DNA from: a bacterium
GTDB lineage: Bacteria > Pseudomonadota > Gammaproteobacteria > Pseudomonadales > Moraxellaceae
DNA length: 64,000 bases
Direction of reading: 5' to 3'
NCBI GenBank assembly: GCA_029945725.1
Contig: JAQSDB010000008.1
Span: 124,001 to 188,000 of the forward strand
Part shown: positions 3,530-14,769 of the stretch, one piece after another
Layout: each line of letters begins with the position of its first letter
Numbering within the stretch: the first letter of the stretch is position 1
Translations under genes and position numbers: made by a program
Notes under the pieces: model-generated
Databases searched by the model: none
What the model saw: the letters and a program-made list of their open reading frames with translations, nothing else
Told to the model about the DNA's origin: nothing

Positions 3530-5749
3530 TCAGGGGCAGCCCGCATCGACCGGCAGTGGATTGCTGCCACAGACCGCGCCTGTACGAATCCAGTTGACGA
3601 TGGTGCTGTAATCCGCCAGACCGGATGGTGTGCTGGTATCTATCAGCAGACCGCCGCCGTGATTGAGGCTGCCGGGTTTGGTCAGCAAGCGGCTGTTTTC
3701 CGGATCCCGCAGGTCAACACGTGCCATGACCCGCTGATAAAGCTTCACGCCATTAGCATCCGTTTCATCCGACCAGTACACGGGAATACCGGCAATGCCC
3801 GTGCTCTTGTGGCAGGCAGTACAGCCGTAGGACGAAAACAAGGGCCTGACATCGTCGACAAACGTGAGCTCTGTCTGCAGTTTTGGCAGGCTGTTGTTCA
3901 CGGCGTAAACAACATGGGCGGTATTGCTGCCTTTGCTGTTGGTCACCGTCAGCGACAACTGCACGCTGCCGCTGGTAGGCGCGGTCAGTACCGGACGCGC
4001 AGTCCCGGCATTGGTCAGGGTGGCATCCAGTGGGCCACTGACAATGGCCCACGCATAGGTGCCGGCAAATGAACTGGCATTCCCGTCCAGCTGCACCGGA
4101 GATTTTACCGTACGGTCCGCACCCGGCCTTGCCACCGGCAATCCTGGCTGAATCACTTTGCCAGTGGCATCAAAAAGTGCCGGATCGGCAAGAAAAGCCG
4201 CCAGCAATGACGGCCCGCGTTCCGGTGCACTCCAGAAACTTTCAAAATTGCGCAGTGACATCGGCATGATGCCGCGCTGGTAGACATAGTCGATGATGCG
4301 ACTGCGGTTGCTGATGAATTTTTCGTAGGAAGAAAAATTAATGGCGTTGCCCAGGTTGCCCGTGCCGTCCACGCCCGGCTCATGACTGGCCGCCAGACCC
4401 TGCAGGGCGTGGCAGCCGGCACAATGCGGCCCTACCACTTCCCGGAACAGCTGGGACACGCCGGCAGGCCGGCCACTGCCTTCCTGCCAGCCGGCGGGCA
4501 CAAAATCATCCACAAAAGTTGCAGAGAGTCCGTTGTTGTAGCGCCCGGCCATCAGCTCGCGGGCAAAATCTGCCGACCACTTTCCCTGCGTGGTGGTGAT
4601 GTCGCGAGCCTTCATGGCCGTGAACGTGCCGGCGACATAGTCGTTGATGGTCCGCAGCCCCGGCTCCAGCTGCGCCCGGTGATAACCGTTCTGCAGGGAA
4701 TACTCGAGATGATCGACATCGATGAAATTAACTTTCGCCGAACGCAGGGACTGCGCCTGGAATTTCCTGTTTTCATCCAGCGGCAGCGTCTGGCCGCCAT
4801 GGCAGGCCCAGCACATGCCCGGCATGTGCTTGACGCCGCGACCATCCAGATCGGCCGAGGTAATGCGGTTCCCTTTCTTGTCGAAGGTGAAAAACTTGGC
4901 AATCATCATGCTGCCGTTCGGATCTGCCGGATCATCCTGGTTGGCAGGACTGAACTCGATGGCGTTACTCCCCTGGAAGTAGCGGGCATCGCCAGAAATC
5001 GCCGCATCCACATTCAACGGCCCGTAATTCGAACTGCTGCCCGGCTGCAGCGCCACCACATAATTATTGACGAAAACCGCAATTGAACCGTCGCCGTTCT
5101 TGCGTGCATACATGTCACGGCCGTAGCCGAGATCCTTGGCATCGCGGAAAGTGACGTGGCTGTCGACGCCGGCATCAAAACCGTTTTTCTGTTTCCAGGC
5201 AGCCAGCGTGGTGCGTGCACCGGCAGGATCGACAGCGGTGTAATACGCCGTTGCATAGTCTGCCGAACTGATACGGCTCACCGGCATGTCCAGCAGGGAA
5301 TGGCCGCTGCCGTCGGCGGTGCTTTGCGCCACCACCTGGTTACCCACCTGATTCTTGCGGCGCAGATAGACATAGCCCGTGGCCGGCAACACGGCCTGCA
5401 ACTCGATGCGCAGGCCACCGGCGTGCGCGAGCGTGACGGGGTACACCGGATTGCCGGCCGCCGTCGGGCTCGGGCCACCAGATGATGACCAGCTGCCATT
5501 CACGGTTTGCATGCTGCCGTCATCCCGCGTGATGACCAGCTTGTAAGTCCCCGACTGCGCAGGCGCGGGCGTGGCCACCACGACGTCATAATCACCGGCC
5601 GCCAGACTGGCCTGGGTATTCGGATAGGTCAGAAAGGAATCGGGGGAATCGGCAGGCACCGTTGCCCGCTCGACGACGGTGTCACCGTTGCCGACACAAC
5701 CCGCCAGCAATACAGCCATGCCCGCTGCAAGGAAAGTCCGGATAATCAT
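3530..5749 (-). CDS. Tri-haem c-type cytochrome lipoprotein with PKD-like domain
   Basis: 739-residue lipoprotein. The N-terminus is a signal peptide with lipobox LLAGC (Cys 18), so it is acylated and probably sits in the outer membrane. Three covalent haem-binding motifs are visible: CWACH (about 313-317), CAGCH (about 443-447) and CTACH (about 643-647). A beta-rich N-terminal region (about 40-130) precedes them. A PKD/Ig-like domain (about 540-620) lies between the second and third haem motifs. It is the last gene of a three-gene operon: its ATG lies 2 bp after the stop of the upstream beta-barrel gene. The architecture suggests an extracytoplasmic electron carrier or redox enzyme; no catalytic domain is recognised. 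A strong terminator lies immediately downstream. Confidence 0.85.
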   Translation of the reverse strand: MIIRTFLAAGMAVLLAGCVGNGDTVVERATVPADSPDSFLTYPNTQASLAAGDYDVVVATPAPAQSGTYKLVITRDDGSMQTVNGSWSSSGGPSPTAAGNPVYPVTLAHAGGLRIELQAVLPATGYVYLRRKNQVGNQVVAQSTADGSGHSLLDMPVSRISSADYATAYYTAVDPAGARTTLAAWKQKNGFDAGVDSHVTFRDAKDLGYGRDMYARKNGDGSIAVFVNNYVVALQPGSSSNYGPLNVDAAISGDARYFQGSNAIEFSPANQDDPADPNGSMMIAKFFTFDKKGNRITSADLDGRGVKHMPGMCWACHGGQTLPLDENRKFQAQSLRSAKVNFIDVDHLEYSLQNGYHRAQLEPGLRTINDYVAGTFTAMKARDITTTQGKWSADFARELMAGRYNNGLSATFVDDFVPAGWQEGSGRPAGVSQLFREVVGPHCAGCHALQGLAASHEPGVDGTGNLGNAINFSSYEKFISNRSRIIDYVYQRGIMPMSLRNFESFWSAPERGPSLLAAFLADPALFDATGKVIQPGLPVARPGADRTVKSPVQLDGNASSFAGTYAWAIVSGPLDATLTNAGTARPVLTAPTSGSVQLSLTVTNSKGSNTAHVVYAVNNSLPKLQTELTFVDDVRPLFSSYGCTACHKSTGIAGIPVYWSDETDANGVKLYQRVMARVDLRDPENSRLLTKPGSLNHGGGLLIDTSTPSGLADYSTIVNWIRTGAVCGSNPLPVDAGCP

Positions 5750-5751
5750 GA

Positions 5752-6648
5752 TCAGAATCTCGCCAGCAGACCCAGACGCACAAGCAGGCGCTGGTAGTTG
5801 TTGTCACCCTTGGCATTCACATCGATACCCTGCACGGAAAAATCCGCCGAGAGCTTGTGACTGAAGGCATTATTAAGCCCGAGCGTTAACGCATGTGTGT
5901 CGGCCTTGAGACGGTACGCCAGCCAGCTGCCACAGAATTTTTCGTTAAAGGCCTCGTCGGTTTCCAGCGCATCGCTGGCCTTGATCAGGCCGAAAATATC
6001 GTTGGCCACGACGCCATTGCAAAACGAGACCTGGGCGGACGAAATGGTATCGCCATGCAGATAGCTGTAGGCGGCGTATGCACTCACATCATCGGTCAGC
6101 GCAAAATCGGCATTGATGAAAAGACGGGTGTGGGTGGTATCAAACACGGTGCCATCGGAACGTCGTTGCACACCTTCAATCCCGTAGGCCAGCGTGGTGC
6201 GGTCGTTGACGTGCTGTGAAGCAAATGCCTGCGCCGTGTAAACCATGCTGTCGCGCTGCTTAACGTCGTAATCATCAAGCTGGGCGGTGAGGTTGAGCTG
6301 GTAAACCGGCGCCGTGAATGTCACCACGGGTTGCCAGCGTCCCATGACCTGGCCACCGGCGCTGGCACGATTGAGCGTGGTGATTTCACGATAAGCTTCC
6401 CCCTCAACAAAACCGCGCACATTGAGGGCGGTGTTGAGGGTGGGCTCGGCGCTGAAAACCACCGCCAGACTGGCCAGCAGGCTTTCATCACTGAGGACAT
6501 CGCGGGTGCGCTCGGCACGACTGACATTACTGTCATAGGTCGTCGTTGCTTCCCCGTCGACCGCCCACTCTGCCCGCACATCAGTCGCCAGCACCAGCGC
6601 CAGCAACATGCCCCACGGGGCCCCTGGTTTCCTGAACAAAGACATCAT
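5752..6648 (-). CDS. Outer-membrane beta-barrel protein of the cytochrome operon
   Basis: 298 residues with a signal peptide (MMSLFRKPG... to about residue 27, VRAEW). The mature sequence is a series of amphipathic beta-strands with acidic turns, and the final residue is phenylalanine (LLARF), as expected for BAM-assembled barrels. The early mature sequence [10 protein letters not shown] resembles uncharacterised outer-membrane barrel proteins. Its ATG overlaps the stop of the giant upstream gene (ATGA), so the two are translationally coupled. It could be the outer-membrane conduit or anchor for the two haem proteins encoded on either side. Two cysteines in the central region may form a disulfide. 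Function is otherwise unknown. Confidence 0.8.
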
Positions 6649-9600
6649 TGCGCCTGCTCCTTGCGGCGAAGAACGAGAATGGCCACTGCCAGTAACAGCA
6701 GGGTGTAAAGATCCAGCGCACCCCCGCTCTGGCTTTCCGTGGGTGCGGTAGCAGCAGCCACACTGCGCGACACGGCCGGTGCGGCTGTCACACGCACAAC
6801 ACCATTCACCTGGCCATCGGCGTCATTGGCACCACCGTCAGTAATAGTGAGCTGTATGCAGTCGTTACCGGCGATGAGGCCGGGCAGATAAGCCGCATCC
6901 TGCGGTGCCGGACACTGGCCGTTCACGCGTTGCGCAGAACGTATGTCGTCACCACCGGTAAAGGCGAAACCGATCCAGCGGTTAGCCGCAGAAAGCTCCC
7001 GCCACTGTGCGCCGGCTGGCAGTGCCACCGGCAAGGGCAAAACCACATGCGCCGTTCCGTTGAGGGCGGACAAGCCGCTCACTTCGAAATCATAAATGGC
7101 ACCAATGGCAGCATCATCGGCGTCCACAATCACCGTACTGCCGATCGCCACCTGCGTCTCGAAAATCTGGATGCCGGCTTGCGGGGTTTGCGCCGATTGC
7201 GCAGCAATGGCGAAGCGGCCGGCGCTCATGTGCAGGCCACTGTCTGCCACTGCCATCAGCAAACGCGTACTGCCTGACCCCATGCGCAGCAAAATGGATT
7301 CGGGCGACTCGCCGCCAAACGCTTCGAGATAATCCAGCAAGCCGTTGCCGTTGCTGTCGACATTGCCCTCGGTACTGTCCGGCACGCCGTCACCGTCGGT
7401 ATCTGCGGCCGTGAGCACGGGCGCACTGCCGTCAAGCAGCGACAGGGTGATGTCACGAGTGATCTGGCGGCTGCCGTCCGACACCGTCACCGCCAGGGCA
7501 TAAACACCGGCGGCAAGCCCCGAAGGATCACTGATCACTACCTGGCAACCCGAGACCGTTACCGGTGTCAGCGCGCCGGTATTCCAGCCGCTGCACACTG
7601 GCGTGGTGCCATTGGGATCGCTCACCCACGCATTCACGCTGATGGCGCCATCCTGGCGATAAACTACCTGGCGGATTTCGCTGTTCTGGGATACCTGCAG
7701 CGAGACCACCACCGGTGCAGCGGCAAAGTGCGTGATCAGGATCCGGTGCGTGGTGCTGCTGCCGAGCGCGGCCGACCCCGTCAGGCCGGGAAGCAGCGCC
7801 AGCAGCATCGTCTTGTCTGCCGCCACGCCGGTGTTGGCCAGCGTCACCGGAATGTATTTCAGGGTTTCACCGTTGTTGAAAACAACCGCCGTGGAAGGCA
7901 CGGTGTAATCCGTCGCCGTGACGCCGCTGACACTGAAGTTCACGGTAACCGGATAGGTCGGCGACAGGCCGTTGAGACGCACCGGCACACTCACCAGTTG
8001 CCCGGGCCCGGCGACTTCACTGCCGCCCATGGTCACGAGCGGTCGCACGATGACGGTCTGGGTCGTGGTGGCGACATGGGCAACCATGTCGGCAGAAACC
8101 CACGGCGTGCTCCACGTCACCGTGTGCTGCCCCGGACGGAAGGGACTGCCCGGATCATGGCTCAGCGTCAGGGCTCCAGCGGGGCCGGTGGCTGATGCCG
8201 TCAGCGTCACGGGCGTGTAATAGCCCGTCGCCGTGGTGACGATATCGCCATTGGTGACAATGACCGGATTGCTCAGCGCATAGCAGGTGATCGAACCGCC
8301 ACAGGCAAGATACTCGTTCAGGTTCGTTATGCCGTTGCCATTGAGGTCGCCGCCGGCATCAGCCGCATCAAACGGATTCAGGCCATTGGCGATTTCCACC
8401 GTATCGGGAATGCCGTCGTTGTCGTCATCGCTGTCGCAGGCATCACCGAGACCATCCTTGTCGTTGTCAGCCTGTGCAAGCGCCGGAGGAATGATCGGAT
8501 TGGCAACGGTGGGGCAGTTGTCGTGATAATCGGCAATGCCGTCACCGTCCTGGTCAAGCTTCACCACCGTCAGCGTGAAGCTGGTTGATGCAGGCAGCGC
8601 GCCATTCTCGCCACCATCGTTAACGCGCACGGTAACGGGGTAACTGCCGCTCGAATCCTTTGGCGGTGCCATGTGCAGCAGGCCGGTGTTGCTGATCGTG
8701 ACCCAGGCCGGGCCGGTAGTGACCTTCCAGGCCAGCGCGGTACCGTCGTTGGCATCATCCGGATCGTTCACGTTCACCTGCAAGTCCTGGGTTTGCAGCT
8801 CGGTGATGGAACCGCTGCTGATGCTGCCGATAAGGGGCGCATCGTTCACCGGTGTGATGGCAATGGTGAAGGACTGGGTAGCCGTGAGCGCACCGGTGCC
8901 GTTGTCCTGCACCAGCACCACAACATTGACGGAAGCGTTCGAGTTCAGCGGCGGCGTCCAGCTGATCACGCCGGTAGACGAATTGATCGTCATGCCGCTG
9001 GGCCGTTGCGAAAATCCGTAGGTCAGTGTGTCGCCATCCACATCGGTGGCATTCACGTCATAGCTGTAGGCCGTGTCTTCCGTGAGCGTGGTCACGGGAG
9101 TCGATACAATCACGGGCGCATCGTTGACCGGCGTAATGCTGATCGTGAAAGACTGGTTGACCGTGTTGGTACCGTCGCTCACGGCCACCACCACATTCAC
9201 AGCGGCGTTGGAGTCCTGTGGCGGCATCCAGTTGATCACGCCGGTGCCGGCATTGATGGTCATGCCGGCAGGTTTGGTGGTCAGGCTGTAGGTCAGTGTC
9301 TGGCCTTCGGGATCACTGGCATTGACGTCGTAAACGTAGGCCGTGTCTTCCAGCAGGGTCGTCACGGCAGTGGTTGATATCACTGGCGCATCATTGTTGG
9401 CACTCACCGTAATGGTAAAGCTGTGCGGCACATTGTTGGTGCCGTCACTGACCTGCACCGTGACATTCGCGGTGTAGTTGCTCAGGGCTTCAGGCGGCAT
9501 CCAGCTGATCACGCCCGTCGTCGCATCAATCGTCATGCCGGCGGGACTGGCGGTCAGGCTGTAAGACAGCGCGCCGCCTTCAGGGTCGGTCGCGTTGACA

Positions 9601-11450
9601 TCGTAGGAGTAGGCAAGCGACTCCGCGGCGCTGGTGACATCAACCGAGGTGAACACGGGAGGATCATTGGAGCTGCTCACCGTGATCGTGAAACTGTGGG
9701 CGACATTGTTGGTGCCATCACTGACCTGCACCGTGACATTCGCGGTGTAATTGCTCCCGGCCTGGGGTGGCGACCAGCTGATCACGCCCGTCGTTGCGTC
9801 TATCGTCATGCCGGCGGGATTGGCAGTCAGGCTGTAAGTCAGCGCCTGGCTTTCCGGGTCGGTGGCATTCACGTCATAGCTGTAGGGCACCAGCTCGGCC
9901 GCCGTGGTGACATCCACGGAACTGAAACTCGGCGCATCATTATTGGCGCTCACCGTGATGGTGAAGCTTTGCGTGACCGTGTTGCTGCCATCGCTGATTT
10001 GTACCGTGACATTCGCGCTGTAGTTGCTCAGCGCTTCGGGAGGTGTCCAGTTGATCACGCCCGTCGTCGCATCAATCGTCATGCCCGCAGGATTGGCGGT
10101 CAGGCTGTAGGTAATGGCGGTGCCTTCCGGGTCGGTGGCATCAACGTCGTAGCTGTAGGCCACACTCTCCGTCGCCGTGGTATGGCCGACGGCAGAGGTC
10201 GTAAAAACGGGCGCATTGTTGCTCGCGGTCACGGTGACCGTGAACGACTGTGTGGCGGACTTGTTGTTGGGAACCCCGTTCTCGCTGCCGTTGTCCAGCA
10301 CCTGCACCGTGACATTGGCGGTGTAGTTGCCGGTGGCCTGCGGCGGTGTCCAGCTGATGACGCCGGTGCTGGGATCAATGCTCATGCCGGCAGGAAAAAC
10401 CGTCAGGCTGTACGTCAGGGTATCGCTTTCGATATCGCTGGCATTCACGTCATAGCTGTAGGCGACGGACTCCGTGGCGGTGGTGACAGCCGACGAAGAA
10501 ATAGCGGGCGCATCATTCACCGGCGTCACCGTGACGCTCATGGGATAGTCGCTGGTGGTGGTGCCGTCATCAACGCGCACCGTAAACGGATAAATCGTAT
10601 TGGACTTGGGCGAATCCGGCGTGCTTGCCGCCGTCCAGCCGATGATGCCCGAGTTGATGGCCATGCCCGTCGGCGCGCCTATCAGCTGGTAGGTCGTGAC
10701 ACCGCCCGTGGTGTTGACGGTGATGCTGAAGTCCAGTTTTTCGGAGCGCGTGGTGAAACCACTGGTGCCAGTGACCGCCGGACAGGCCGGTGTTGTGAAG
10801 GTATTGTCGCCACCGTTGGTGGTGTTGACGGAATTGGTGCCGCGAGCACGGAAATGATAGGTCGTCTCGCAGGAAAGGCCGCTGATACCGCTACTGATGC
10901 CGACCGCAGAAACACCGCCACCAGTACCCGTGGTGGTCAGCGTGCCGGTGGTCGAGCCATAGCCTGTTGTGGTGCCGTACTGGAAGACATAGCTGGCATC
11001 GGCACCGTTGTCGTTCACCGAGGCCGCGAGCGTGGCGGAATACTTGCCGACGGAAGATGCGCTGCCGGTGGTGACATCCGGAGCAGCGGAGTTCAGCTTG
11101 CCGCCGTCTATCCAGGATTGCAGCAGAGTCTTTTCCGTACTGTTGAGGGGAACAATGGCGTTCTGCGCATTGTTGTAGGGCATGGCATCGGCCTGGACAT
11201 AGGTGTTGGCGATGTCACCGCTGGTATTGGCCACGGCATAGGTATTGAAGTCATACCCCACCGGCGCGCTGTTGCGGCTGGCACCGCTCAGCGCCGTACT
11301 GTGACAGCTAGTGCACGCACGCACGGAGTTGCTATTGAAGATGTTGGCCTGCACGCCCCCCGTGCCGCTGTAGGTCACCGTCGCCAGTGCCGGCACCGCC
11401 ACACAAAGCCACAACACCCCCATGGCCTGCGTCAAAAAACGGAATGGCAT
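6645..11450 (-). CDS. Giant secreted mono-haem protein with Ig/cadherin-like repeats, calcium repeats and C-terminal sorting-like tail
   Basis: 1601 residues from the ATG at 11450, which has GGAGGGA upstream and opens directly into a signal peptide ([10 protein letters not shown]...ALA). The ORF track start at 11630 adds an untranslated leader. Order: a CTSCH haem motif (46-50); an FN3-like domain (about 125-215); eight tandem Ig/cadherin-like repeats of about 90 residues, typified by [14 protein letters not shown]; thrombospondin-3/EF-type calcium stretches ([15 protein letters not shown] and neighbours); further beta domains; a region resembling the choice-of-anchor U domain ([15 protein letters not shown]). 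The tail is Gly-Gly, one hydrophobic helix and RRKE, like GlyGly- or JDVT-CTERM signals. It is probably exported and surface-displayed. First gene of the operon. Confidence 0.88.
8850..10510 (-). repeat. Tandem approximately 270-bp repeats encoding Ig/cadherin-like domains
   Basis: Repeats 2-7 of the giant protein are recognisable at DNA level. For example, the stretch encoding [11 protein letters not shown] recurs near 9520, 9790 and 10060, a period of about 270 bp. Each unit encodes strands of the form [28 protein letters not shown] and SFTITVS. Near-identity of some units suggests recent duplication or homogenisation. Confidence 0.85.
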
Positions 11451-11729
11451 AACGGTTCCCTCCAGAAAATGCGGCATCGCTGATGCCTGGCGGCTGATCC
11501 TTGGCACTGCCCGGAAAACCACCAGGGCCGGTTCCGTGACAAAATACCTACGGATGATATGGAGAGTCGCTACAAAAGCCCAGCCGCCTGATGACAAGAC
11601 GAAGGGTCCGGAAATTGGGACGATAGTCATGATAGTGCGCCTGCCACCACGCCTGCCGGTGCGATATAGTCACCCGGGTTCGCTGCCACGACGTGACAAG
11701 GCGTCCGGCATTACCAGGAGACACCCTTT
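11451..11729. promoter_or_regulatory. Divergent promoter region between the giant cytochrome operon and the fecR-cyclase pair
   Basis: 279 bp separate the two divergent start codons. The region must hold the promoter of the three-gene minus-strand operon and that of the FecR gene. A TATAGT hexamer at 11665-11670 could be a -10 element for the plus strand, but its -35 is poor. No clear operator palindrome was seen. Confidence 0.4.
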
Positions 11730-12455
11730 ATGGACCGCGACGATCCGCTAGAAACCCGCCGCCACTTTTTGCGCATGCTCATGGCCACCAGCGGGGTTGC
11801 CGTGACCGGCAGCCTGCTCGCGCCTCTCGTTCATGCTTTCGGCAAGGTGCCGCGGCAACTCCCGCCGGGTCAGTCGGTTTACGACCTGCGCGGCAAGGTG
11901 CTGGTCGATGGCAAGCCGGCCAACCCGGGCACGCGCATCAAGACTGATTCGCTGATCGAAACCACCAGCAACAGCTATGTGATTTTTGCGGTCGGCCAGG
12001 ATGCGCACATCCTGCGCGAAAACAGCCGCATGCAACTGGCCGGCAAGGATGACTTGGCCGATGCCATGCGCCTGTTCACCGGCAAGGTATTGTCCGTCTT
12101 CGGTCACCGCAGTGGCGGCCAGAAGCTCGCCATCCATACCACCACCGCCACCATCGGTATCCGTGGCACCGGCGTCTACACCGAGTCGCACGCTGACAGC
12201 AGCTATGTCTGCACCTGTTACGGCCTTACCCAGATTGCGTCAAAGTCAGACCCCGGCGTCACCGAAGATGTGGTGTCGCATCATCACGATGCGCCGCGCT
12301 ACATCGTCAACAATCCGGAAGGCGGCAAACTCATCCTGCCGGCACCGATGAAAAACCATACCGATGAAGAACTGATGCTGGTGGAGACACTGGTCGGCCG
12401 TACGCCGCCCTTTTCTGCCGCCGGCGGTTACAGCGCGCCACGCCGCGGCTACTGA
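11730..12455 (+). CDS. Tat-exported FecR-domain protein
   Basis: 241 residues. The N-terminus has a twin-arginine signal (TRRHFLRM followed by a hydrophobic stretch ending near residue 35), so it is probably exported folded through Tat. The mature part holds a FecR-like beta domain (about 55-165) with typical segments: KVLVDGKPANPGTRIKT, SNSYVIFAVG and TTATIGIRGTGVY. A CTCYG cysteine pair follows. There is no cytoplasmic anti-sigma segment, so this is not a classical FecR sigma regulator. AGGAG precedes the ATG. The next gene, a CHASE2 cyclase, begins 23 bp downstream, so they probably form an operon with a periplasmic sensing role. Confidence 0.82.
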   Translation: MDRDDPLETRRHFLRMLMATSGVAVTGSLLAPLVHAFGKVPRQLPPGQSVYDLRGKVLVDGKPANPGTRIKTDSLIETTSNSYVIFAVGQDAHILRENSRMQLAGKDDLADAMRLFTGKVLSVFGHRSGGQKLAIHTTTATIGIRGTGVYTESHADSSYVCTCYGLTQIASKSDPGVTEDVVSHHHDAPRYIVNNPEGGKLILPAPMKNHTDEELMLVETLVGRTPPFSAAGGYSAPRRGY

Positions 12456-12478
12456 AAGCCTTCTTTCAAGGAACAGAC

Positions 12479-14695
12479 ATGCAGGGAATGCTGCGCCGGC
12501 TGCGCTCACAGCCACGGTTTTTTCTCGGACTGCTGATTTTTTTTCTCTTTCTGCTGAATGCCGTATGGCAGCTGGGCGCCCTCGACGGCCTGGAGCGCAA
12601 GGCCTACGACATGCGCGTACGCGCCACCGTGCCCAACACCGTGGACGAACGCATTGTCATTGCCGACATTGATGAAAAAAGCCTGAAGGCACTGGGGCGC
12701 TGGCCCTGGAGCCGTGATGTCATGGCGCGCCTTGTCGACACCCTGTTCAGTCATTATCAAATCCGCGTCGCGGGTTTTGACGTGGTCTTTGCCGAGCCGG
12801 AAAAAAATTCCGGCCTCGCCCTGATGAACGAGCTGGCACGCGGCCCGCTGAAGAATGACGGCGGTTTTCTTGCCGAATACCAGAAACGCAGCAACAGCCT
12901 TGATAACGACGCCCTCTTTGCCAGGGCACTGGCTGGCAGGAACGTGGTCCTTGGCATGGTATTCAGTGCCGGCAATGGCACTGACACGAACACGGCGCCG
13001 GCTCCGTTCGCGACGCTGACGGCCGCCGGCGCCAGCGCCCTGCCTGATCTGCCGCATCCGCGCAGCTACACCGCGAATCTTGATGCCTTCAGCCGGAATG
13101 CGGCCAGCTCCGGCTTCTTCGATAACCCGCAGATTGATGCCGATGGCATTTTCCGGCGCGTGCCGCTGTTCCAGCTCTACCAGAACAGGCTTTATCCCTC
13201 GCTGGCCCTGGCCACGGTGCACATGGCACTGGGCGCACCGCAGGTGCAGCTGCACAAGGGCCGCTCCGGTGACTACGAAGCCTTTGAAGGCATCACGCTC
13301 GGTGATGTTTCCGTGCCCACCGATGCACACTCATCGGTGCTCGTCCCCTGGCGCGGCCGTCATGGCGACAGCTTCAATTATTATTCCATCAGCGACATCC
13401 TCGAGAAAAAAATCCCGCTGGAAACGCTGAAGAACCGCATTGTGCTGGTTGGCACCACGGCCCCCGGCCTGCTCGACTTACGCTCCACGCCGCTGGAAAA
13501 AACCTATCCCGGTGTTGAAGTTCACGCCAACATCATTTCCGGCATTCTTGACGACATGGTGCGGCAGGAGCCGGCCTGGGGCGTGGGCATGGAAATCCTC
13601 ATGCTGCTCGCCGTCACCCTGATCACGCTGCTGCTGACCACGCGCCTGGCGCCACACTGGCAGGTCGTGATCACGCTGCTGCTGGCGGGCGGCATTATCG
13701 GCATCAATTTTCTGGCCTGGAACAGGGGCCTGGTCATGCCCCTGGCCTCGCCGCTGTTGCTGCTGCTGATCCTGTTCACCTACACCATGGCCTTCGGATT
13801 TTTTGTCGAGACACAGGGCAAGCGCGCCATCACGCGCCTGTTCGGACAATACGTGCCGCCCGATCTCGTCGATGAAATGGCGAAGCATCCGGAAGCCATC
13901 TCCCTGGAAGGCGAATCGCGCGAAATGACCGTACTGTTCTCCGACGTGCGTGATTTCACCTCGATCTCCGAAGGCCTTTCGGCCACCGAGCTCTCCGCGC
14001 TCATGAACGTCTACCTCACCGCCATGACGCGCCTGATCCAGAAGCACCGTGGCACCATCGATAAATATATCGGCGATGCCATCATGGCGTTCTGGGGCGC
14101 CCCGCTGCGCGATGCCGATCACACCCGCCTCGCCCTGCTCACCGCCATGGACATGGAAGCCGAGCTGCTTGCCCTGGCGCAGGAATTCCGCGCGCGCGGC
14201 TGGCCCGTGCTCAAAATCGGCATCGGCCTCAATGCCGGCACCATGAACGTCGGCAATATGGGCTCCGAATTCCGCATGGCCTACACCGTCATGGGTGACG
14301 CCGTGAATCTCGGTGCGCGCCTCGAAAGCCTCTCCAAGAATTATGGCGTGACCATTGTGGTCAGTGAATCAGTACGCAGTGCCGTGCCTGACTTTGCTTA
14401 TCGCAGCCTTGATTGCGTACGCGTAAAAGGCAAACAGGAACCGGTACGCATCTACGAACCGCTGGGCCTGCAGGATGCGCTGAGTACCGCCAGCCGCGAA
14501 CAACTCGCGCGCTGGGAAAGCGCCATCAGCGCGTACTGCCAGCAGCACTGGGACGAAGCCGAAAATGCGCTGCGTGCTCTCGTCAACAGTGATGATCACC
14601 CGCTCTACCGCCTGTATCTCGAACGCATTGCGCAATTCCGCGAAACGCCACCACCGGCCGACTGGGATGGCGTTTACACCTACACCAGCAAATAA
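12479..14695 (+). CDS. CHASE2-domain class III adenylate/guanylate cyclase
   Basis: 738 residues: a short N-terminal membrane helix (about 14-32), a periplasmic CHASE2 sensor (about 40-360, beginning KAYDMRVRAT and IADIDEKSLKALGRWPW), three closely spaced membrane helices (about 370-450) and a class III nucleotide cyclase domain (about 475-680). Catalytic features are present: metal aspartates in LFSDVRDFTS and DKYIGDAIMAFWG, and the transition-state Asn/Arg pair in VMGDAVNLGARLE. The lysine of DKYIGD and threonine of YTVMGD favour ATP as substrate, so cAMP is the likely product; this is inference from family patterns. AAGGA precedes the start. The CHASE2 domain faces the periplasm, where the FecR partner also resides. 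Confidence 0.93.
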   Translation: MQGMLRRLRSQPRFFLGLLIFFLFLLNAVWQLGALDGLERKAYDMRVRATVPNTVDERIVIADIDEKSLKALGRWPWSRDVMARLVDTLFSHYQIRVAGFDVVFAEPEKNSGLALMNELARGPLKNDGGFLAEYQKRSNSLDNDALFARALAGRNVVLGMVFSAGNGTDTNTAPAPFATLTAAGASALPDLPHPRSYTANLDAFSRNAASSGFFDNPQIDADGIFRRVPLFQLYQNRLYPSLALATVHMALGAPQVQLHKGRSGDYEAFEGITLGDVSVPTDAHSSVLVPWRGRHGDSFNYYSISDILEKKIPLETLKNRIVLVGTTAPGLLDLRSTPLEKTYPGVEVHANIISGILDDMVRQEPAWGVGMEILMLLAVTLITLLLTTRLAPHWQVVITLLLAGGIIGINFLAWNRGLVMPLASPLLLLLILFTYTMAFGFFVETQGKRAITRLFGQYVPPDLVDEMAKHPEAISLEGESREMTVLFSDVRDFTSISEGLSATELSALMNVYLTAMTRLIQKHRGTIDKYIGDAIMAFWGAPLRDADHTRLALLTAMDMEAELLALAQEFRARGWPVLKIGIGLNAGTMNVGNMGSEFRMAYTVMGDAVNLGARLESLSKNYGVTIVVSESVRSAVPDFAYRSLDCVRVKGKQEPVRIYEPLGLQDALSTASREQLARWESAISAYCQQHWDEAENALRALVNSDDHPLYRLYLERIAQFRETPPPADWDGVYTYTSK

Positions 14696-14769
14696 AAAAA
14701 CGGCGGCACCTGCCGCCGCCAGATTGATTGTCATATAGTCAGGTCATCACTCCGCAAAGGCAGCTTGCG

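Follow-up and report, generated by a model that had tools for sequence, protein, structure and literature searches.

The locus considered here lies in a window of 64,000 nucleotides (the whole stretch of DNA that was analysed) from a Moraxellaceae genome. It raises the question of whether a FecR-like protein and a CHASE2 adenylate cyclase, encoded side by side and divergently from a surface haem operon, act on that operon or simply adjoin it. An earlier note on this DNA had proposed that the pair may sense the envelope and control the surface proteins through cAMP, from an intergenic promoter region shared with the operon. The open reading frames, domains and coordinates of the divergent arrangement were confirmed, and the arrangement is conserved in the genus.

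The FecR-like protein

The FecR-like protein (241 amino acids) is encoded on the plus strand at 11730-12455. The reading frame is preceded by AGGAG, and a Tat-type signal with an RR-x-F-L motif lies close to the N-terminus. The TIGR01409 Tat signal model scores 15.3, slightly under its cut-off of 16.7, and the RR pair is near-invariant across 103 relatives. Alone, the window protein reaches 18.8 bits with Pfam FecR (PF04773), for which the cut-off is 24; among its aligned relatives 11 of 11 match this family at the loose threshold of E <= 0.05 that was used for them (best 2.8e-7). Searching with the AlphaFold model (pLDDT 78.5) gave structure matches below E 0.001 solely to 4m0h/4m0n and to PupR 6ovk_R, with TM scores of 0.44-0.50. 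Judged by this predicted model, the protein has the fold of the FecR/PupR-type anti-sigma (sigma-regulator) periplasmic domains. An anti-sigma domain and a membrane helix are absent from the 241 residues, which contain the twin-arginine start and the FecR match alone. When the FecR profile was searched against PDB sequences, a chance ribosomal match was all that was returned.

A set of six residues, C161-x-C163, H186 and H210-x-D212-x-E214, characterizes the subfamily. C161, C163 and H186 are present in 103/103 non-redundant relatives, and H210, D212 and E214 in 99%. Since the scan that yielded the named loci used a pattern including C-x-C-Y-G, and so selected for C-x-C, the residue check was repeated on 35 FecR sequences from outside that scan; C161, C163, H186 and D212 occur in 35/35 of these, and H210 and E214 in 34/35. 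Two other FecR-type proteins that adjoin other CHASE2 cyclases (L144, L146) contain no such C-x-C in the parts read. From its composition, the set resembles a metal, haem or thiol site.

In one reading, the FecR-like protein would carry a metal, haem or redox-active thiols and would either sense or join electron transfer within the surface haem complex; this reading is compatible with both a sensor and an output role. Besides the invariant and near-invariant residues, it is favored by the Tat-type export and by the genes that adjoin FecR in several betaproteobacterial loci (L092:1601-4731, L104:7479-10505, and also L095, L110 and L112), where a SelR methionine sulfoxide reductase and a DsbD/thioredoxin fusion follow it; the SelR of L092 has a Tat-like RR start. 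Against it, these residues may have a structural role, such as forming a buried disulfide, and the C-x-C motif was itself selected for by the pattern scan. On balance, we regard this reading as rather unlikely.

The CHASE2 adenylate cyclase

The cyclase gene (12479-14695, plus strand, 738 amino acids) starts 23 bases past the end of the FecR gene. Its product matches Pfam CHASE2 with 214 bits and Guanylate_cyc with 75 bits, each over the cut-off. In class III cyclases two aspartates bind metal, a Lys/Thr pair selects the base and an Asn/Arg pair serves the transition state. The corresponding residues of the window protein are D489 and D533, K529 and T603, and N610 and R614, and all three pairs are invariant in 13 FecR-linked cyclases. 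The protein is thus a CHASE2 adenylate cyclase with intact catalytic residues, its base selectivity being predicted from those residues. In a tree that also held other CHASE2 cyclases from the order, the FecR-linked ones group together; the others include a paralogue from the window's own genome, for which no FecR neighbor was detected.

A GC-rich hairpin lies right behind the cyclase gene at 14701-14718; the position of its A-rich side indicates that it would act as an intrinsic terminator for minus-strand but not for plus-strand transcription. The genome encodes four further CHASE2 proteins, namely a paralogous CHASE2 cyclase near a divergent hybrid histidine kinase (L033, G000:C8:100221-102341), a CHASE2-only protein (L034, G000 C11:62176-63099), a CHASE2 Ser/Thr kinase near a PP2C-like phosphatase (L035, G000 C11:79485-80594) and a CHASE2 cyclase (L036, G000 C3:63337-64248). 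In a separate locus, L176:1391-11305, a CHASE2 cyclase is clustered with a second CHASE2-like protein, with a PP2C-like phosphatase and an FHA-like protein, and with a protein of the metallo-beta-lactamase fold, which by eye resembles a cyclic nucleotide phosphodiesterase.

The divergent surface operon

Three minus-strand genes (window 3530-11450), whose ends overlap or almost touch (11450-6645, 6648-5752 and 5749-3530), make up the divergent operon. The first (6645-11450) encodes a large Ig-repeat protein. It has a single N-terminal CXXCH, and in its C-terminal part a hydrophobic segment precedes RRK; by eye this C-terminus resembles GlyGly-CTERM, and a rhombosortase is present in the genome. 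The second (5752-6648) encodes a 12-strand outer-membrane β-barrel of 298 amino acids (AlphaFold pLDDT 92.5) with a long loop past strand 9, in which two cysteines are mostly conserved. No Pfam STN or plug match was found in the barrel, and its size and strand number identify it neither as a TonB-dependent transducer nor as a large porin of the MtrB/PioB type; a single one of 17 barrel members matches MtrB_PioB, weakly (E 0.006). The third gene (3530-5749) encodes a tri-haem protein with three CXXCH motifs, a lipobox cysteine at C18 and a PKD-like domain; the profile of this cytochrome matches PKD domains in the PDB and, weakly, cytochrome-like proteins.

Fused forms of these proteins were also seen. 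The Ig-repeat protein and the barrel form one polypeptide in L055:3096-7787, and in the betaproteobacterial loci L072:921-3719 and L075:11996-14704 Ig-like domains are fused with an autotransporter domain and a further barrel-like C-terminus.

Conservation and gene order

The five genes, whose co-occurrence the earlier note had suggested testing, do co-occur. The block is present in 5/5 genus relatives with long enough contigs and is cut by the contig end in a sixth, and because it is kept in these genomes the arrangement is not due to chance. FecR was not seen in two incomplete genus genomes (59% and 82%). Beyond the genus, FecR tracks the tri-haem gene.

Among 80 named FecR loci, four of which belong to the window's genus, the gene immediately after FecR on its own strand encodes a cyclase in 18; a window-family barrel lies within ~11 kb in 30, and a tri-haem gene within that distance in 14. 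Wherever a linked cyclase exists (18/18 of the named loci having one), it is directly downstream of FecR. A class-wide HMM survey added 27 FecR loci, with a linked cyclase in none, a barrel in 14 and a tri-haem gene in four. The FecR-barrel association is therefore broad and the cyclase linkage narrower, the latter having been observed among relatives from the same order and in a few other gammaproteobacteria, e.g. Catenovulum and Psychrosphaera. Some public MAG titles are apparently wrong (L038, L079, L109); a contig titled Pedobacter holds genes of the window's Moraxellaceae-like genus, and MAGs titled Bordetella parapertussis hold FecR loci of the window family.

That FecR, barrel and cytochrome are commonly found without a linked cyclase suits an explanation in which FecR belongs to the surface complex as a functional or assembly component, an output rather than a sensor, with the cyclase sensing alone and FecR co-regulated through cAMP. 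This is a serious rival because the FecR gene of Sinorhizobium (S. meliloti) is such a cAMP-regulated output: the gene for SMc02177 lies close to that of the CHASE2 cyclase CyaD1 and is targeted by Clr/cAMP, and the protein is dispensable for signal perception (PMC5498481). On the other side stand the invariable position of the linked cyclase directly downstream of FecR and the recurrence of FecR-CHASE2 clustering with histidine kinases and in other phyla (PMC5192318, PMC9239204). A pure output role appears unlikely, if less so than the metal or redox role considered above.

Gene orientation varies among the loci. Relative to FecR, the tri-haem gene is convergent in seven, divergent in five and co-directional in two of the 14 named loci, and divergent in three and co-directional in one of the four class-survey loci. 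A divergent shared promoter, to which the earlier note had pointed, was therefore rejected as a conserved feature. The promoter region common to FecR and the operon is incidental, since the association holds with other gene orders and without linkage.

The intergenic region and CRP-type receptors

The region between FecR and the operon (11451-11729) is poorly conserved, its DNA alignment with relatives showing little conservation, and contains one sigma-70-like match at 11641-11670 (plus strand). CRP sites, which the earlier note had suggested seeking here, did not materialize: a scan of seven intergenic regions detected no CRP-like site over chance in 11451-11729, and among the relatives a single marginal case (L025, P 0.03). 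The window's genome does encode a CRP/Vfr-like receptor, of which a 154-residue fragment was scored, with 225.6 bits against a whole-protein cut-off of 266. In another genome (G726), the genes that come next to a cytochrome operon without FecR (L237:5894-11754), downstream and on its strand, encode a CRP-family regulator, an FHA-domain class III cyclase and a Ser/Thr protein kinase. Here a cyclase and a regulator adjoin the surface operon in a single independent instance, which could be coincidence.

Genome-wide co-occurrence

Across 295 genomes of the order, the full-length tri-haem cytochrome was found in six and full-length FecR in eight, with FecR present in 6/6 of the tri-haem genomes against 8/295 overall. 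In three genomes (G042, G085, G143) the distance between FecR and the cytochrome is ~17 kb or 51 kb, or the two genes lie on different contigs. Across 369 genomes of the class, FecR is present in 7/9 tri-haem genomes against 31/369 overall. The hypergeometric probabilities, 3e-11 for the order and 5e-7 for the class, ignore relatedness, though the cases come from several families. Where a genome has more than one FecR copy (G511, G718, G733), one of them is kept beside the cytochrome operon. Because the co-occurrence persists without linkage and with varied gene orders, a functional link between FecR and the surface operon is probable on these genomic grounds. Together with the G726 operon, this upholds the part of the earlier regulatory proposal that joins pair and operon functionally, and leaves aside the part that rested on their common promoter.

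A pair regularly found apart from the cytochrome operon was the case that the earlier note had named against itself, and on this the picture is mixed: among 17 distinct FecR-cyclase lineages, the tri-haem gene is present somewhere in the genome in ten and absent in seven. These seven lineages, and the poor conservation of the intergenic region, would fit a pair that is adjacent to the operon by descent alone and senses something unrelated. However, the association outlasts rearrangement and loss of linkage, and in five of the seven the pair has a same-family barrel close by; we consider adjacency by descent quite improbable.

In genomes with an unlinked FecR, a CHASE2 cyclase is encoded elsewhere in 22/24, a figure counted in FecR-positive genomes alone. 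The statement that an unlinked FecR always keeps a partner cyclase was dropped, as many such cyclases sit in clusters of their own, one of which was read as kinase-type, phosphatase and FHA genes.

Relation to known systems

The recurrence of FecR domains tied to CHASE2 cyclases, asserted in the earlier note, is borne out by published work. In Campylobacterota, a CHASE2 class III adenylate cyclase is clustered with a FecR outer-membrane protein, a TPR protein and a phosphodiesterase (PMC9239204). The cyclase is encoded there, as here, with a FecR-domain envelope protein, but the present FecR is of the Tat type with the C-x-C/His set and is accompanied by a surface haem/barrel operon, and TPR and phosphodiesterase genes are absent beside it. 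The BiofilmReg operon likewise pairs a FecR protein with a CHASE2 receptor; it differs in that the receptor is a histidine kinase with response regulator output and the FecR protein carries a LysM domain (PMC5192318). The S. meliloti CyaD1/Clr/SMc02177/SMc02178 system shares the close encoding of a CHASE2 cyclase, a CRP-type receptor and a FecR protein, and differs in the role of FecR noted above and in that no cytochrome operon is described; SMc02177 is likened to the window subfamily by its description as a FecR protein (PMC5498481). FecR sensing in the present locus is putative, and this sole experimental precedent found points away from FecR as sensor.

The FecA-FecR-FecI and PupB-PupR systems have a FecR-type periplasmic fold and an outer-membrane barrel partner, here a proposed one, and the PupR signaling domain binds the outer-membrane receptor (PMC7186176). 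Unlike in those systems, the window FecR has neither the anti-sigma domain nor the membrane helix, the barrel is not a TonB-dependent receptor and a cyclase forms the output. Another likeness, in gene content, is to the porin-cytochrome conduits (Pcc/Mtr; PMC4245776), in which an outer-membrane barrel is likewise encoded with c-type cytochromes; the present operon departs from them in its 12-strand barrel, few haems and Ig-repeat surface protein. With partial literature coverage, no publication was found that joins the FecR-CHASE2 pairing to a surface cytochrome or barrel. The pairing itself is already known, and the surface partner set is new and well supported.

Proposed mechanism and significance

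The domains, catalytic residues, gene order, FecR-barrel-cytochrome co-occurrence and FecR-cyclase adjacency are direct observations. Building on them, we tentatively favor, at somewhat short of an even chance, an envelope signaling chain for the outer-membrane barrel/haem assembly that acts via cAMP. FecR would be its periplasmic part and the CHASE2 cyclase its inner-membrane part, the chain being dedicated to the 12-strand barrel, often together with the haem-bearing Ig-repeat surface protein and the tri-haem lipoprotein. The Tat-exported FecR would touch the barrel side of the assembly, the CHASE2 domain would read the state of FecR and thereby set cAMP synthesis, and cAMP would act through a CRP/Vfr-type receptor on surface-protein expression. 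The physical contacts, the direction of the signal, the control of the operon and the targets of cAMP are what we infer.

Counted in favor of this chain are the genus-wide five-gene block, the constant place of the cyclase behind FecR, the proximity of the barrel, the co-occurrence of the tri-haem gene with FecR, the grouping of FecR-linked cyclases in the tree and the copy retained beside the cytochrome operon in multi-FecR genomes. So are the fold match to the receptor-binding PupR signaling domain, the G726 operon with its cyclase and CRP-family regulator, and the CRP-like protein of the window's genome. The strongest counter-evidence is the dispensability of SMc02177 for perception (PMC5498481). 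Also counted against it are the intergenic region without a CRP site, the many FecR loci without a linked cyclase (including 27/27 in the class survey), the barrel without an STN-type signaling domain and the co-occurrence values, which ignore relatedness.

A more specific version, a redox- or metal-gated cyclase, appears improbable; in it the Tat-exported FecR, as a metalloprotein or thiol switch, would read the extracellular haem complex via the barrel and pass its state to CHASE2. If true, it would provide the first defined input for CHASE2 receptors, an input stated to be unknown (PMC5192318). The partnership of this FecR subfamily with the barrel and the haem proteins of the surface supplies specific candidates for that input, testable gene by gene, and the signaling chain, if true, would extend FecR-type envelope signaling from sigma factors to cAMP.
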